In this document: piece after piece, positions 1,066 to 33,733 of the stretch | Layout: the number at the start of each line of letters is the position of its first letter | How positions within the stretch are numbered: position 1 is the stretch's first letter | Assembly (NCBI RefSeq): GCF_016593235.1 | Contig: NZ_AP023065.1 | Span: 1,426,001-1,490,000, forward strand | Length of the DNA: 64,000 nt | Direction: 5' to 3' | Origin: Nitratiruptor sp. YY09-18 | Lineage (GTDB): Bacteria; Campylobacterota; Campylobacteria; Campylobacterales; Nitratiruptoraceae | The notes under the pieces: generated by a model | What the model was told of the DNA's origin: nothing | The model's database searches: none | The model's input: only the letters and a program-made list of their open reading frames with translations | Made by a program: the position numbers and the translations under genes

Positions 1066-2421
1066 TCAGCGAATCGGTGGCATTCCTCCACCACCCATCT
1101 GCTTCATGAGATTTTGCATATCCTGCATTCCCTTTTTACCAGCAAATTTTTTGGCAAATTTGGCTGCATTGTTAAACTGCTTAAGGATTTTGTTGACCTC
1201 CTGCTGGCTCAGACCTGCACCTTGTGCTATACGGCGCTTGCGAGAATTGTTTTTGAGAATGAGATCTGGATCTTTGCGCTCTTTTGGAGTCATGGAATTG
1301 ATCATAGCTTTGATTTTTTTGATCTCTTGTGAGTTTTCAAGATCGAGATCTTTTATGGCCTTTGCCATATTTCCCATACCTGGGATCATAGAGATGAGGC
1401 TTTTGAGACTCCCCATTTTCTTAATTGACTCAAGCTGATCGAGAAAGTCTTCGAAATTAAACTTCCCTTTTGCGATCTTTTTGCTAATCTGCTTCGCTTT
1501 CTTCTCATCAATGACTGCTGCAGTCTTTTCAGCTAAAGACTCGATGTCACCCGCACCCATCAAGCGGTTTGTGATTCTTTCAGGTATAAAGACTTCCAAA
1601 TCTGGCATCTTCTCGCCAGTCCCTATGAAGCGAAGAGGCACGCCGATTTGATGTGCGAGGGAAATTGCTACACCACCTTTGCTATCCCCATCATATTTTG
1701 TAAGGATAACACCAGTGATACCTACATCTTCATTGAATTTTGCTGCACTTCTGACTGCATCTTGACCTGTAAGTGAGTCAGCTACATAAAACACCTCATC
1801 AGGATTTGCTGTCTCTTTGACACGACGCAGTTCATCCATCAAGGCTTTATCAATTGCCAAACGCCCTGCAGTATCTATAATCACCACATCATAGAGCTTC
1901 TCTTTGGCAGTTGCAAGAGCGTCTTTGACCACTTTAACTGGGTCTTGCTCACCCTCTTCGCCAAAAAAGTCTACATCTATTTGCTGTGCAATCTGGCGTA
2001 GCTGCTCCACTGCTGCAAGTCTTTGGAGGTCGGCAGCCACAAGGAGCACTTTTTTACCTCTGAGCTTGAGATAGTTTGCAAGTTTTCCAGAGGTTGTCGT
2101 CTTCCCACTTCCTTGCAAACCTGTCATCAAGACTACAGTTGGAGGTTTGCTTGCATATACAAATCCCTGTTTGCCAGGAGCTGTGAGGATATCAGTGAGA
2201 TTTTTTTGAAGCGCTTGCAAAAATGTATCACGCCCAATCCCTGCTGCTTTTGTATCAAGCTCCACACGTTGCAAAAGCTCTTTGACAACTTTATGGTGCA
2301 CATCAGCCTTAAGCAGGCTCTTTTTGAGCTCAGTAAGCGCCTTCTTTAGAGCTTTCTCATCATCTTTGAATCTGATCTTTTTTATGGCATTGCTAAATGA
2401 GCTCGAAAGCGTTTCAAACAA
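1066..2421 (-). CDS. ffh: Signal recognition particle protein Ffh (SRP54)
   Basis: A GTPase of 451 residues, normal for Ffh, that binds signal sequences of nascent membrane proteins and docks to FtsY. N domain about 1-90; the P-loop GLQGSGKTT is at 101-109, DTAGRL near 190 and TKYDGDSKGG near 245; the M domain follows, with a methionine-rich tail ending MPPIR. The start codon is TTG: an in-frame TGA sits two codons upstream, so TTG is the only start giving the normal MFETL-type N-terminus. A terminator separates it from the upstream pseudouridine synthase gene, so ffh probably has its own promoter. Confidence 0.97.
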   Translation of the reverse strand: MFETLSSSFSNAIKKIRFKDDEKALKKALTELKKSLLKADVHHKVVKELLQRVELDTKAAGIGRDTFLQALQKNLTDILTAPGKQGFVYASKPPTVVLMTGLQGSGKTTTSGKLANYLKLRGKKVLLVAADLQRLAAVEQLRQIAQQIDVDFFGEEGEQDPVKVVKDALATAKEKLYDVVIIDTAGRLAIDKALMDELRRVKETANPDEVFYVADSLTGQDAVRSAAKFNEDVGITGVILTKYDGDSKGGVAISLAHQIGVPLRFIGTGEKMPDLEVFIPERITNRLMGAGDIESLAEKTAAVIDEKKAKQISKKIAKGKFNFEDFLDQLESIKKMGSLKSLISMIPGMGNMAKAIKDLDLENSQEIKKIKAMINSMTPKERKDPDLILKNNSRKRRIAQGAGLSQQEVNKILKQFNNAAKFAKKFAGKKGMQDMQNLMKQMGGGGMPPIR

Positions 2422-2458
2422 ATCTCATCCCTTCCTCTTTTTGAGTTTGCAATTTTAC

Positions 2459-2493
2459 TTAAAAAAAGATTAATTTTAGCTAAATTTAATCTT
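2459..2493 (-). terminator. Rho-independent terminator after the pseudouridine synthase gene
   Basis: On the minus strand an eight-base stem AAGATTAA / TTAATCTT, extended inward by TTTAG/CTAAA after one A-A mismatch, is followed by a run of seven T. The stem overlaps the stop codon of the upstream gene at 2492-2494. It insulates ffh from the waaA-rlu operon. Confidence 0.75.
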
Positions 2494-3220
2494 ATCGAAT
2501 TATAAAATCTTGTGGTTCTGGTGCTTCGAAGCTGTAATCTAACAGCTCTATTTTTTTTGCATGGAGCATTATTCTACTCCAAGGTTTTCCTCCATAGAAC
2601 ACATCACCCAAAATAGGATGACCACTGCGAGCCAGATGGACTCTGATCTGGTGCGTCCTGCCTGTTTTGATTATGGCTTTGATCTTGGTCTTTTTGCCAT
2701 GGATCTCCAAAGGCTCAACAATTGTAAGAGCGGGTTGTCCTTTGGAGCGAGAGATGCGACTCTTGGCTTTTCCGTTTTTCTTAATCGTCAAAATTGGCAG
2801 ATCTATCTCAAAAGGCTCTGCAATAATTCCCTCTACCCAAGCAACATACTCTTTATAGACACGCTGATTTCTAAACTCCTCTATCGCTTTTTTGCGAAAC
2901 TCTTTATCTTTTGCTAGCAGCAACACACCGCTTGTCTCTTTATCGAGTCTATGGAGCAGTTCATATCCGCTATCTTGCTTTATCTCTTCGCTAGTGATAT
3001 GTGCAGGCTTATTGATAGCCAATACCTTCTCATCTTCATAAATTACTTGTGGTTTTTCTACCTTTTTGACGCGAAATTTGGTCTTTACATCTATCTCGCC
3101 TCTTGCAATCTGTACTTTGCGATCACCCACATAGACCAAACCTCTATCGATCAACTCTTTTGCTTTTTTGTTTGAAATATCTAGCTGCTTTGCCAATACT
3201 TTATAGGCTTTATCCTTCAT
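2492..3220 (-). CDS. RluA/RluD-family RNA pseudouridine synthase
   Basis: A 242-residue RluA-family enzyme that isomerises uridine to pseudouridine in rRNA or tRNA. Residues 1-50 form a short S4-like domain. The catalytic motif HRLDKETSG is at 90-98, with D93 the expected nucleophile. GRTHQIRVHLA near 190 is the second family signature. The target RNA cannot be told from sequence. It is shorter than RluD (about 320) and close to the small RluA-type enzymes of Campylobacterota. Its start overlaps the end of the DUF167 gene by 11 bases. Confidence 0.9.
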   Translation of the reverse strand: MKDKAYKVLAKQLDISNKKAKELIDRGLVYVGDRKVQIARGEIDVKTKFRVKKVEKPQVIYEDEKVLAINKPAHITSEEIKQDSGYELLHRLDKETSGVLLLAKDKEFRKKAIEEFRNQRVYKEYVAWVEGIIAEPFEIDLPILTIKKNGKAKSRISRSKGQPALTIVEPLEIHGKKTKIKAIIKTGRTHQIRVHLARSGHPILGDVFYGGKPWSRIMLHAKKIELLDYSFEAPEPQDFIIR

Positions 3221-3500
3221 TCATACTCTCCAAAAACTCTTCTATTTTCTCATTCATCGGTAACTTGATAGCTTTTCTCTTGCTTGTCTCCCCACTCACA
3301 AATGCTATCTGGCTCTTTGGAACTTTAAAGCTTTTACTCAAAAATTTTATAAGCTCTTTGTTTGCTGCACCCTCAACTGCTGGTGCTTTTATATTTATTT
3401 TCAAAGCATCTCCGTACACTCCCGCAATTTTGCTGCGACTAGAGTTTGGCTGCGCTTTGATATAAAGAATAATGCTATCACCTCTTTTTTCATACCACAT
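3210..3500 (-). CDS. DUF167 / YggU-family protein
   Basis: A 96-residue protein of the YggU (DUF167) family. Recognisable parts are the IILYIKAQPNSSRSKIAGVYGDALKI region and the AVEGAANKELIKFL segment, the family signature. The molecular function is not established. Both ends overlap neighbours (the waaA 3' end and the pseudouridine synthase 5' end), so it is translated as part of the operon. Confidence 0.88.
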   Translation of the reverse strand: MWYEKRGDSIILYIKAQPNSSRSKIAGVYGDALKINIKAPAVEGAANKELIKFLSKSFKVPKSQIAFVSGETSKRKAIKLPMNEKIEEFLESMNEG

Positions 3501-4635
3501 CTTCTAACACTTTCCATACTGGATCAAGGGAAACATCCGCTACTATTTTACTCTTTTTCCAGTTATAATGCTGCAATACCGAACCTAAATCATTTGCAGG
3601 TACAACTTCGATACCCTCAACATACGCATAGCTCTCTTTTTGGTTGAAATAATAAGGACCACTTACAATTGGAGCTCCAAAATATGCAGGTTCAAGAGGG
3701 TTATGCCCTCCACTTTCTACAAAGCTTCCACCAAGAATCACAAGATCTGCAACTGCATAGAGGTTATTGAGTTCGCCAAGTTTATCTATAAGTATTATAT
3801 CAGCTTCAAGATTTTCTGTTTGGCTAAGAAGCGAAAATGTGAGATCTTCTCTGGCAGCAATATGCTCCAAAAGTTCCGCTACTTCATCAAATCGCTCAGG
3901 ATGCCTTGGTGCAACTACGAGAGTGCTTTTGCCCTTTTGGTGCACTACCCATTCAGTTGCTATGATCTCCTCTTCAGGATCGTGCGTGCTTGCAGCCACT
4001 ATAATGGGTCTACTCTTTTCATACTTTTTTGTCACTTGTGGAATGCTTAGCAACTTGATATTGCCAATAACCTCAATATTTTTGGCTCCAAGCTGCTCTA
4101 GCCTCTTTGCATCCTCCTTCGTTTGCGCAAAAACATAGTCGATATGGGCAAAGACTCTTTTGTAAAACCAAATAAAGCGCATATAGCGATGAAGACTTCT
4201 ATCACTTATACGGGCATTGAGAAGTATCGTTTTTGCTCCACGTTTTTTAGAGATATAAAAAAGCAAATACCATAGCTCAGCCTCCATCACTACCAACGCC
4301 TTTTGGGGCTTGAGCCATACCCACAAAAGTGGTTCAAAAGGAAGATAGCGCACCTGGGCATTTGGATAACTTGAAGCTGCTGCAAAACCGGTCTGCGTGA
4401 TGACGCTGATATTGCATTTTTCAAGCTTTTGCACTAAAGGTGCGAGAGCCTTTGTCTCACCGAGGCTACATGCGTGAAAATGTATGAGTTTTTGAGAAAA
4501 GGGAGGGTTGTTGATGAGGAAAAATCGAGCTGGAATTGCTTGGCGATACTTCTTTTTAAGAGCAAGAAGCAATAATATAGGAATAGCAAGAATGTAAGCT
4601 ATAAGAGTGATGAGCGTATAGAGATAAGTAAACAT
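3490..4635 (-). CDS. waaA: 3-deoxy-D-manno-octulosonic acid (Kdo) transferase
   Basis: A GT30 glycosyltransferase of 381 residues (family usually 390-425) that adds Kdo to the lipid A precursor at the inner face of the cytoplasmic membrane. The N-terminus has one strong membrane segment (about 5-27). FHACSLGETKAL near 52-63 carries the conserved catalytic Glu. The C-terminal GT-B half has GGSFVESGGHNPLEPA, the CMP-Kdo binding signature. It implies an LPS-containing Gram-negative envelope. Confidence 0.95.
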   Translation of the reverse strand: MFTYLYTLITLIAYILAIPILLLLALKKKYRQAIPARFFLINNPPFSQKLIHFHACSLGETKALAPLVQKLEKCNISVITQTGFAAASSYPNAQVRYLPFEPLLWVWLKPQKALVVMEAELWYLLFYISKKRGAKTILLNARISDRSLHRYMRFIWFYKRVFAHIDYVFAQTKEDAKRLEQLGAKNIEVIGNIKLLSIPQVTKKYEKSRPIIVAASTHDPEEEIIATEWVVHQKGKSTLVVAPRHPERFDEVAELLEHIAAREDLTFSLLSQTENLEADIILIDKLGELNNLYAVADLVILGGSFVESGGHNPLEPAYFGAPIVSGPYYFNQKESYAYVEGIEVVPANDLGSVLQHYNWKKSKIVADVSLDPVWKVLEDVV

Positions 4636-31358: not shown

Positions 31359-32468
31359 TTGGATAGCTACGAATATAGTGAACTTCTCAAAAAACTTGAA
31401 AACAAAATAGAAAATATCAAAAACATTATCAAACCCGATCAGATAGAAAAACGTATCGCAGAAATTGAAAAGCTTGAAAATGATCCCAACTTTTGGAACG
31501 ATGCGAAGAAAGCGGGAGAGATACAAAAAGAAAAAAACCGACTTTCCCGCATTTTAGCAAAGTATAACGAAGCAAAAAATGCAGTCGAAGAGAGCAAAGA
31601 GCTTTTTGAGATGGCGAGTGAAGAGGAAGATAGTGAAACTCTTGCAATGCTTTTTGAAGAGGCTCCAGCTTTAGAAGAGAAGGTGAACAAAGTAGAGATT
31701 GAAACAATGCTCAGTGGTGAAAATGATGATAAAAATGCAATTATCTCTATACACCCAGGAGCTGGAGGAACTGAGTCACAGGATTGGGCGAGCATCCTCT
31801 ATCGCATGTATCTGCGCTGGGCAGAACGCCATGGATTTAAGGTGGAAGTGCTTGATTATCAAGAGGGTGAAGAGGCAGGCATCAAGGATGTGAGTTTTAT
31901 CATAAAGGGTGAAAATGCCTACGGATACCTCAAAACTGAAAACGGCATCCACCGCTTGGTGCGCATTAGCCCATTTGACTCAAATGCTAGACGCCATACA
32001 TCTTTTGCCTCAGTTATGGTGAGCCCTGAAGTAGATGATGATATCGATATTGTAATAGAGGACAAAGATATTAGAGTAGATACATACCGTGCAAGTGGTG
32101 CAGGTGGACAGCATGTGAATAAAACAGATTCAGCTATTCGCATCACTCACATCCCTACAGGTATCGTGGTACAGTGTCAAAATGACCGTAGCCAGCACAA
32201 AAACCGTGCAACTGCAATGAAAATGCTCAAATCTCGCCTCTATGAATTAGAACTTGAGAAGAAAAAAGCTGAACAAGAGGGAATAGAAAAGAGTGAAATT
32301 GGATGGGGACATCAAATCCGCAGCTACGTCCTTGCTCCCTACCAACAGGTCAAAGACAACCGTAGTAACAAAGCCTACTCTAATGTAGAAGCTATTCTAG
32401 ATGGTGATATCGATAAAATAATTGAAGATGTACTCATTGCCGAAGCACAAAAAGAGGAGAATCATTAA
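31359..32468 (+). CDS. prfB: Peptide chain release factor 2
   Basis: 369 residues. The stop-codon reading motif SPF is present in VRISPFDS near 203, and the catalytic GGQ in [11 protein letters not shown] near 247-257. It releases peptides at UGA and UAA. The start is TTG at 31359, with TTAGGAGA ending five bases before it. The frame is continuous: the programmed frameshift at an early in-frame UGA, which autoregulates RF2 in many bacteria, is absent here. Confidence 0.96.
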
Positions 32469-32593: not shown

Positions 32594-32612
32594 ACCTTAT
32601 TAAGGTGCTTTT

Positions 32613-32638
32613 AAAGGGATAGTAGTTACTATCTTTTT
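32613..32638 (+). terminator. Hairpin with T-tract upstream of the 29-residue ORF
   Basis: GATAGT-AGTT-ACTATC, extended by two G-T and three A-T pairs, ends in TTTTT. It has rho-independent terminator form on the plus strand and lies about 70 bases before the small ORF, so it could end prfB transcripts or attenuate the small gene. Confidence 0.55.
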
Positions 32639-32641
32639 ATC

Positions 32642-32670
32642 AGTAAAAAGAATGTTTCACTCTTTTTACT
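32642..32670 (+). promoter_or_regulatory. Leader hairpin of the 29-residue ORF
   Basis: Ten-base perfect stem, AGTAAAAAGA (32642-32651) with TCTTTTTACT (32661-32670) around a nine-base loop. It ends 37 bases before the start codon of the small gene. Confidence 0.5.
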
Positions 32671-32707
32671 ATATAAGCAATTCTAATATATAATATAAGG
32701 AGGAACT

Positions 32708-32797
32708 ATGGCACCATCTGAAATTTTAGGAATCGTCTATGCAGCATTGATGGGCATATCGTCAGTTATGTGGCTAGGATTTAACGTAAAAAAATAA
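32708..32797 (+). CDS. 29-residue single-span membrane peptide, unknown
   Basis: ATG to TAA, 29 codons. The product starts MAPSEILGIVYAALMG, has a hydrophobic span at about 5-24 and ends FNVKK, so it looks like a single membrane helix with a basic cytosolic tail. A near-perfect Shine-Dalgarno (AAGGAGGAACT) precedes the ATG, much better than that of most genes here, and the leader is highly structured. It converges with lolD seven bases later. I know no homologue; its size and form are like small subunits of respiratory or transport complexes. Confidence 0.7.
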   Translation: MAPSEILGIVYAALMGISSVMWLGFNVKK

Positions 32798-32804
32798 TCC
32801 TCTA

Positions 32805-33449
32805 TTACAATGGCTCCAGACGTTGCTCTTGGAGCCTAAAGATTCTATCACATCTCTTTGCCAGCTCCATATCGTGAGTCACCAAAAATAGTCCAGCTTC
32901 GTAGCTATTAACATAGTCAAAGACCCCATCCATCACTTCATAAGCTGTTTTTCTATCAAGATTTCCGGTAGGTTCATCTGCAAAGAGGAGCTTTGGTTTT
33001 TTTGTGAGAACCCTTGCGATACTCACACGCTGCTGTTCACCTCCACTAAGCTGTGTGACTCTTTTGTGAATAACTCGCTCAATCCCAAAGGCCTCTATGA
33101 GCTCATTGTCAATCTCTTGCTTGCTCAAAAGTGCGGCAACTTCTATGTTCTCTATAGCACTAAATCCTTTGAAGAGGTAGTGGGATTGAAAGACTATTCC
33201 GATTTTTTCTCGACGAATTTCGATAAGTTTTTTTTGATTCTTTTTTGCATATATATCGGTACCGAAGAGCTCAACTCTTCCTTTATTGGGAGCTAGAAGT
33301 GTTGCTAAAATATGCAAAAGCGTCGATTTGCCACTTCCGCTTACACCTACTATCGCTACACTCTCCTTGGCAGCTATAGTGAGATTAATATCATGAAAGA
33401 GTGGATAGTCGAATGCATGGGAGAGATTGGTTGCTTGTAGTAGCGTCAT
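32805..33449 (-). CDS. lolD: ABC transporter ATPase, LolD/MacB type
   Basis: 214 residues from the ATG at 33449 ([13 protein letters not shown]), which has GGGAAATC just before it; a longer frame to 33485 would start inside a repeat. Walker [10 protein letters not shown]-loop [15 protein letters not shown], signature [15 protein letters not shown] and Walker [13 protein letters not shown] fit LolD, which powers release of lipoproteins to the outer membrane. The LolC/E membrane partner is not adjacent, so another MacB-like role is possible. Confidence 0.85.
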
Positions 33450-33478
33450 GATTTCCCTTTTCTTTGGGAAGCTAAAAA

Positions 33479-33530
33479 GAGGCAAAGGACAAGCAGTTGT
33501 CCTTCACAAAAGCTTTTGGCTCTTGGCCAC
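33479..33530. repeat. Palindromic repeat, copy 1 (degenerate)
   Basis: Begins GAGGCA, then the hairpin AAGGACAA-GCAG-TTGTCCTT (33485-33504), then the palindrome CAAAAGCTTTTG (33507-33518) and CTCTTGGCCAC. It aligns along its length with copy 2 at 33677-33732, same orientation. Confidence 0.65.
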
Positions 33531-33673
33531 AAACTTTGCTTCTTTATATTTTTGAACTTAATCGCAAAACTTCGTTCGCTTCACTCACTTGCTTTACTTC
33601 AAGGTAACCCAGCAGCTCCCATGCTCATCACAAAATTCCTTGAATTTCGGATTTGCATATAGTCGCTGCTTTC

Positions 33674-33733
33674 AGTGAGGCACGAAGAACAAGTAGTTGT
33701 TCTTCTAAGAAGCCTTCGGCTTCTTGCCTCACT
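33674..33733. repeat. Palindromic repeat, copy 2, three-way-junction fold; overlaps tsf stop
   Basis: A nine-base outer stem, AGTGAGGCA (33674-33682) with TGCCTCACT (33725-33733), encloses two perfect hairpins: GAAGAACAA-GTAG-TTGTTCTTC (33684-33705) and AAGAAGCC-TTC-GGCTTCTT (33707-33725). On the minus strand it begins at the tsf stop codon and could act as its terminator. The rest of 33531-33673 has a small AAATTC/GAATTT repeat but no gene. Confidence 0.75.

Follow-up and report, generated by a model that had tools for sequence, protein, structure and literature searches.

A conserved, unannotated gene for a 29-residue, predicted single-helix membrane protein downstream of prfB in Nitratiruptor

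The 64,000-nucleotide stretch of Nitratiruptor sp. YY09-18 DNA analysed here (the window) contains a 29-codon ATG-TAA frame on the forward strand (32708..32797) whose product, MAPSEILGIVYAALMGISSVMWLGFNVKK, has one hydrophobic helix. The ATG is preceded at a distance of 4 nt by the Shine-Dalgarno (SD) sequence AAGGAGG (32697..32703, + strand), and both the frame and this site, as given in a preliminary description of the locus, proved exact when re-read from the sequence. Further upstream on the same strand lie TTTAAA (32610..32615), an AT-rich upstream promoter signal 11 nt before a -10 element, TACTAT (32627..32632), and a leader inverted repeat, AGTAAAAAGA-9 nt-TCTTTTTACT (32642..32670). 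Directly 3' of the stop codon is a hairpin, GGCTCCA...TGGAGCC (32812..32836, + strand), which we call only terminator-like because it has no long U tract. The upstream neighbour on the same strand is a gene that we take, from its sequence, to be prfB, encoding release factor 2 (31359..32468, +). On the other side the microprotein gene converges with an ABC-transporter ATPase gene, presumably LolD-like (32805..33485, - strand). Between this ATPase gene and tsf (window positions 33486-33728) there are two inverted repeats, GGACAAGCAGTTGTCC and GAACAAGTAGTTGTTC, that are explained by neither gene. The 29-codon gene is present in a single copy in its own 1.76-Mb genome.

Within the window alone, open reading frames of 20-60 codons with a suitably spaced AGGAG numbered 7, compared with 4.7 in shuffled sequences, and 2 of these were strongly hydrophobic where 0.2 were expected. 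The second of the two sits inside a larger open reading frame, presumably ftsW by its look. The evidence from this one sequence is thus moderately, and not far, beyond chance, and it is cross-genome comparison rather than window statistics that makes the frame at 32708-32797 certain.

For this comparison we used 22 genomes of the family of the window (f1), drawn from Nitratiruptor and its sister genus. A search of 60 relatives with the peptide gave strong matches (E 2.4e-4 or better) in 15 of 16 genomes of the window's genus, its own included, and in 4 of 5 genomes of the sister genus. A profile search over the 22 family genomes returned the same 19 carriers, one of which (G010) has a copy cut by a contig end. 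The gene usually lies just after prfB in these carriers. In the complete genome G017, a hemerythrin-like gene comes immediately after prfB and the peptide has truly been lost; in G015, prfB is followed by a PAS gene and no peptide was seen in the stretch examined. The contig of G021 stops at prfB itself, which leaves no sequence in which to judge presence or absence. The region 3' of prfB also varies in its other genes: in sister genera (L016-L018 and L103), genes that we presume to encode hemerythrin, DUF2249-like and NnrS-like membrane proteins follow prfB or the peptide, a set that genomes of the window's genus either lack or have exchanged for a PAS gene.

The ATG, the frame, an AAGGAG-type site and the stop codon are kept in all 18 full-length family copies, so that the loss of frame or start codon that would have spoken against a gene is seen in none of them. 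Additionally, the strong ribosome binding site noted in the preliminary description is a family trait, with a GGAG core 4-7 nt before the ATG in 18/18 leaders. A comparison of synonymous and non-synonymous change, which that description had recommended, gave pN below pS in every one of 153 pairs (mean pN 0.19, mean pS 0.71). Codon position 3 varies most (0.398, against 0.18 and 0.105 at the other positions), and purifying selection is thus on the protein and not on the nucleotides. Because orthologues exist, because frame, start, ribosome binding site and stop are kept, and because pN is below pS, we regard it as secure, at the level of sequence comparison, that 32708-32797 is a real, unannotated, protein-coding gene. 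Plasmid records held no match to the peptide, and phage records held a single phage, under two accessions, at chance level (E=9). The gene therefore fits a housekeeping part better than a mobile element. Its neighbours among the carriers are prfB or a UbiA-like gene on one side and the ABC ATPase gene with tsf, hemerythrin or PAS genes on the other; among these there was no constant functional link and no adjacent partner gene.

Alignment of the 18 upstream stretches revealed a TANNAT motif that is invariant at one place (18/18) and follows TTTAA-type elements; the TACTAT of the window lies within this block. The microprotein gene thereby has its own putative sigma-70-type promoter, and TTTAAA/TACTAT is presumably akin to promoters of the Campylobacter kind. 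Transcription would start about 60-70 nt before the ATG in most copies, just 5' of the inverted repeat. The description of the leader as structured was right in substance: the stretch from -78 to -12 has a mean fold z of -2.20, compared with -0.39 in the adjacent upstream control (18 loci), and z is negative in all 13 testable leaders (-1.8 to -6.6), but the leaders of 5/18 loci are too short for the hairpin. In relatives the arms of the repeat have other sequences and are still complementary, and it is on these inverted repeats and fold z values that the conservation of the leader hairpin is based. A hairpin directly 3' of the stop codon is likewise found in most family copies.

The leader hairpin of several copies has a 3' arm that is also able to pair with the SD sequence. 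The combined duplex z is -3.9 over 13 leaders, and a repeat of the SD region inside the leader has a combined z of 3.85 over the same number, values that overstate significance because the loci (18 in all) are related. Individually, pairing reached p<0.05 in 5/13 leaders, and two leaders (L006 and L010) paired worse than their shuffled versions. The SD-region repeat is no more than suggestive. When mRNAs with inferred ends are folded, the SD is in pairs for the most part (probability of being unpaired 0.01-0.50, 18 loci), and for this reason we do not claim an open site; regulation of the ribosome binding site by leader pairing is possible.

The peptide itself has a maximum Kyte-Doolittle value of 1.88 over 19 residues, and comparison across relatives supports the membrane helix of the preliminary description. 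An alignment of 17 rows has 9 invariant positions out of 29: M1, P3, S4, L7, Y11, W22, F25, N26 and K28. Entropy along the helix (residues 6-26) is one-sided, with a conserved face and a face that varies among hydrophobic residues, the pattern expected if the helix packs against a partner. The conservation moment over these residues was significant in 16 family sequences (permutation p=0.009) and after addition of five peptides from a second family, f4, described below (p=0.006), and was not significant for those five alone (p=0.09). MAPSEILGIVYAALMGISSVMWLGFNVKK probably inserts in the membrane with its N-terminus outside and its KK tail in the cytoplasm, the latter following from the positive-inside rule.

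To define the wider distribution, we ran a profile search over 397 genomes of the class, in which strong matches were confined to the family of the window. Three further families of the class (f4, f17 and f6) have similar stand-alone peptides of 29-30 residues. The f4 peptide, MTPMEIVASIYALAAVGIAPTWAIFQLKKH, was first met as a full-length weak match with an E value of 0.06, about the chance level for such a search. It is a conserved stand-alone gene in 5 of the 18 genomes of one f4 genus (g6), where the copies are 67-87% identical and share the register of ATG and stop. A search with a second profile (A2) found MELMAIVYGAVLVVGAGMYFYFNTGDRAH as a stand-alone gene in 8/397 genomes, seven of f17 and one of f6 (G176, G223, G310, G316, G333, G354, G387 and G422; L151-L158). 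A weak ninth match, in a 499-aa frame of G195, was left out. The f17/f6 peptide ends in NTG[DS]R[AK]H. The three patterns can be written as M.PSEIL...Y..........W.GFN.KK for f1, MTPME.....YA.......PTW.IFQ.KKH for f4 and E......Y.........M....NTG.R.H for f17 with f6.

Pairwise shuffles gave p<1/2000 for both f1-f4 and f1-f17, and weaker support for the g59 version (p 0.0035-0.07). Compared with f1 in hhalign, f4 reached 95.0% over all 29 columns and f17 94.3% over 23, but helices with no relation to it score about as high over 17-19 columns. We consider the f4 peptide a likely, though not proven, homologue of the f1 peptide and the f17 peptide a candidate homologue. Beyond these genomes, when the f1 profile was run against the GTDB genome collection, 11 out of 25 candidate stretches were confirmed, all from Campylobacterota and including metagenome-assembled genomes of Nitratiruptor.

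The window peptide had no match in NCBIfam, Pfam or PDB, and its profile had none in PDB. When members of the wider profiles were compared with profile libraries, only single-member weak matches appeared (best E 0.01 and 0.012). The open-licence literature yielded no paper on Nitratiruptor small proteins of this sort or on unannotated Campylobacterota small membrane proteins. What is new is therefore the unannotated peptide; its kind, the single-helix membrane microprotein, is known. In one report, the C. jejuni annotation is described as having had no protein below 30 aa, and 28 of 42 new small ORFs are of 30 aa or less (PMC11955535).

The comparisons bring out the gene itself, protein-level selection on it, a promoter, the hairpins and a helix conserved on one side. 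On this basis we think it probable that the locus is a monocistronic microprotein gene with its own promoter and hairpins, and that its product crosses the inner membrane once and serves a complex there as an accessory or regulatory subunit, packing by its conserved face. The sigma-70-type promoter would make a transcript of about 200 nt that carries a 5'-proximal hairpin, followed by a strong ribosome binding site, a frame of 29-31 codons and the terminator-like hairpin. The product would span the membrane as a single helix with its N-terminus outside and its lysine tail inside; the face formed by L7, Y11, W22 and F25/N26 would then pack on a conserved inner-membrane partner, of whose complex the peptide would be a small accessory or regulatory subunit that may serve in its assembly, stability or regulation. 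The preliminary description had suggested a small subunit or regulator of a membrane complex. This is still the best class, although no partner has been found, next to the gene or elsewhere, the complete genome G017 does without the peptide, and three that might be named, cytochrome bd, cbb3 oxidase and a COX2-type oxidoreductase, are unsupported.

A broader proposal, which we put forward tentatively and think more doubtful than the reading just given, is that the peptides make up an undescribed family of stand-alone single-helix proteins of 29-31 residues in at least four Campylobacterota families, each encoded alone at changing places, and that in f1 the leader hairpin, by also masking the ribosome binding site with its 3' arm, would let the cell switch production of one subunit in a conserved membrane complex. 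In either case, a conserved unannotated membrane microprotein family is added to a phylum with few known. Stabilising respiratory complexes is a frequent role of small subunits with one helix, and finding a partner would therefore be expected to bring to light a part of vent Campylobacterota energy metabolism that has so far been hidden.

The main rival to a subunit of a membrane complex is a type I toxin: as in aapA/IsoA, a structured mRNA would encode a small hydrophobic peptide with a lysine tail, and an antisense RNA together with pairing of the SD would keep it silent. In size (TisB 29 aa, AapA 30 aa), single helix and positive C-terminus the peptide fits type I toxins, and concealment of the SD in the primary transcript is a hallmark of such systems (PMC8309996, PMC6733600). 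The possible pairing between leader and SD, with its combined z overstated by the relatedness of the loci, and the mostly paired SD in the folds of the inferred mRNA would both suit a toxin. Against this, an antisense TANNAT occurs in at most 3/18 sequences at any offset between -30 and +99, compared with 18/18 for the sense -10. Additionally, the gene is single-copy, stays beside prfB in nearly all carriers, has a one-sided face under strong purifying selection (conserved E, Y, W, F and N) and lacks any match among plasmids. A toxin controlled by a cis-encoded antisense RNA is rejected for want of a conserved antisense -10, a trans-encoded antitoxin is conceivable, and the toxin reading as a whole is, in our judgement, unlikely.

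Next to it in plausibility, and also improbable, is the proposal that the peptide is a detached transmembrane helix of a heme-copper oxidoreductase, comparable to subunit IIa of ba3 oxidase or CcoM of cbb3 oxidase. Enzymes of this kind in the family of the window comprise CcoN, a cNOR-type enzyme and an enzyme of about 550 aa with a COX2-like partner. The peptide profile repeatedly matches the first helix of the COX2-like protein, with a best E of 4.3e-4 per genome and the same inferred topology, and shuffles of that helix against the two family peptides tried gave p<1/2000. In hhalign, however, an unrelated SecF helix taken as a control scored 95.8%, higher than the COX2-like helix at 94.7%, and five complete genomes (G000, G001, G003, G011 and G018) have the peptide and lack the enzyme of about 550 aa. 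For these two reasons homology to the COX2 helix was rejected. In L098 (G008:C4, 2562-4898) and L099 (G017, 2179-4430), the gene for this enzyme adjoins that for the COX2-like protein, which has the stretch STEYSGP without the cysteines of what we take to be the CuA-site motif.

On the cbb3 side of the proposal, similarity to CcoM (compared as PDB 5djq_N) was at chance, with shuffle p 0.07-0.98 for six peptides. CcoN was seen in 17 of the 19 family carriers, both misses being incomplete genomes, and gave no match in two of the five g6 carriers of f4, G433 (96% complete) and G434 (88%), again incomplete assemblies. An obligate partnership with cbb3 is weakened by these carriers without CcoN, all of them incomplete assemblies. 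All three enzyme types occur without the peptide in two f4 genomes, G024 and G059. CcoQ was also considered and set aside: shuffle p was 0.016-0.025 for f1 peptides and 0.06-0.94 for the other four, and ccoQ is already present in its operon.

A regulatory RNA, or one with a dual function, whose short frame would be either incidental or a leader peptide, is a very unlikely reading of the locus. Together the hairpins in the leader and after the stop would give a compact, sRNA-like transcript, but selection is on amino acids and not on nucleotides, Rfam had no match in the window, and in the window's genus most of the genes downstream are convergent, leaving nothing to attenuate.

Least of all do we favour the peptide as a missing small subunit (CydY/CioY) of cytochrome bd, an idea prompted by CioY, with 34 aa and conserved W, P and Y (PMC11955535), and by cydA in 7/8 carriers of the f17/f6 set and 0/13 non-carriers (Fisher p 7e-5; the 13 f17 non-carriers were chosen among g19 genomes and judged by sequence searches), a correlation for much of which shared ancestry inside g59 may account. 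It is refuted for the window's peptide, as CydY is already present, similarity is absent and there are carriers without cydA: a CydY-like gene follows cydB in 9/9 cydAB loci read, the window's genome included, hhalign of the peptide profile with CydY gave 4%, the peptide gene adjoins prfB and not cydB, and cydA is found in 5/19 family carriers (none shown in 14/19) and, in g6 of f4, in 1/5 carriers and 2/13 non-carriers. As a separate observation, the CydY/CioY-like gene of the window's own genome encodes a 36-aa product, MDYSEALFWYATWPVVIWLAYKFVRLNLKHAPKDKV, just after cydB at position 3863 of L181 (G000:C1:124300-129800), with an AAGGAGG site, and genes like it occur in eight other cydAB loci.

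Among known systems, CcoM, the 36-aa subunit of Pseudomonas stutzeri cbb3 oxidase, is similarly very small, with one helix and a positive C-terminus, and is encoded away from its oxidase operon; it differs in that the peptide resembles it no more than shuffled sequences do and that an association of the peptide with cbb3 is not supported. Subunit IIa of Thermus ba3 oxidase has the same size, about 30 residues, and one helix, whereas neither the peptide nor its profile has a PDB match. CioY/CydY of CioAB from Campylobacter jejuni (34 aa) shares the bacterial class, the single helix and the history of being missed by annotation, but sits after cydB and has a W-x3-WP motif, and the profile comparison gave 4%. 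Lastly, the AapA toxins of Helicobacter and its relatives are 30-aa membrane peptides made from structured mRNAs in the same phylum; unlike them, the window gene has no conserved antisense promoter and is single-copy, syntenic and strongly conserved.
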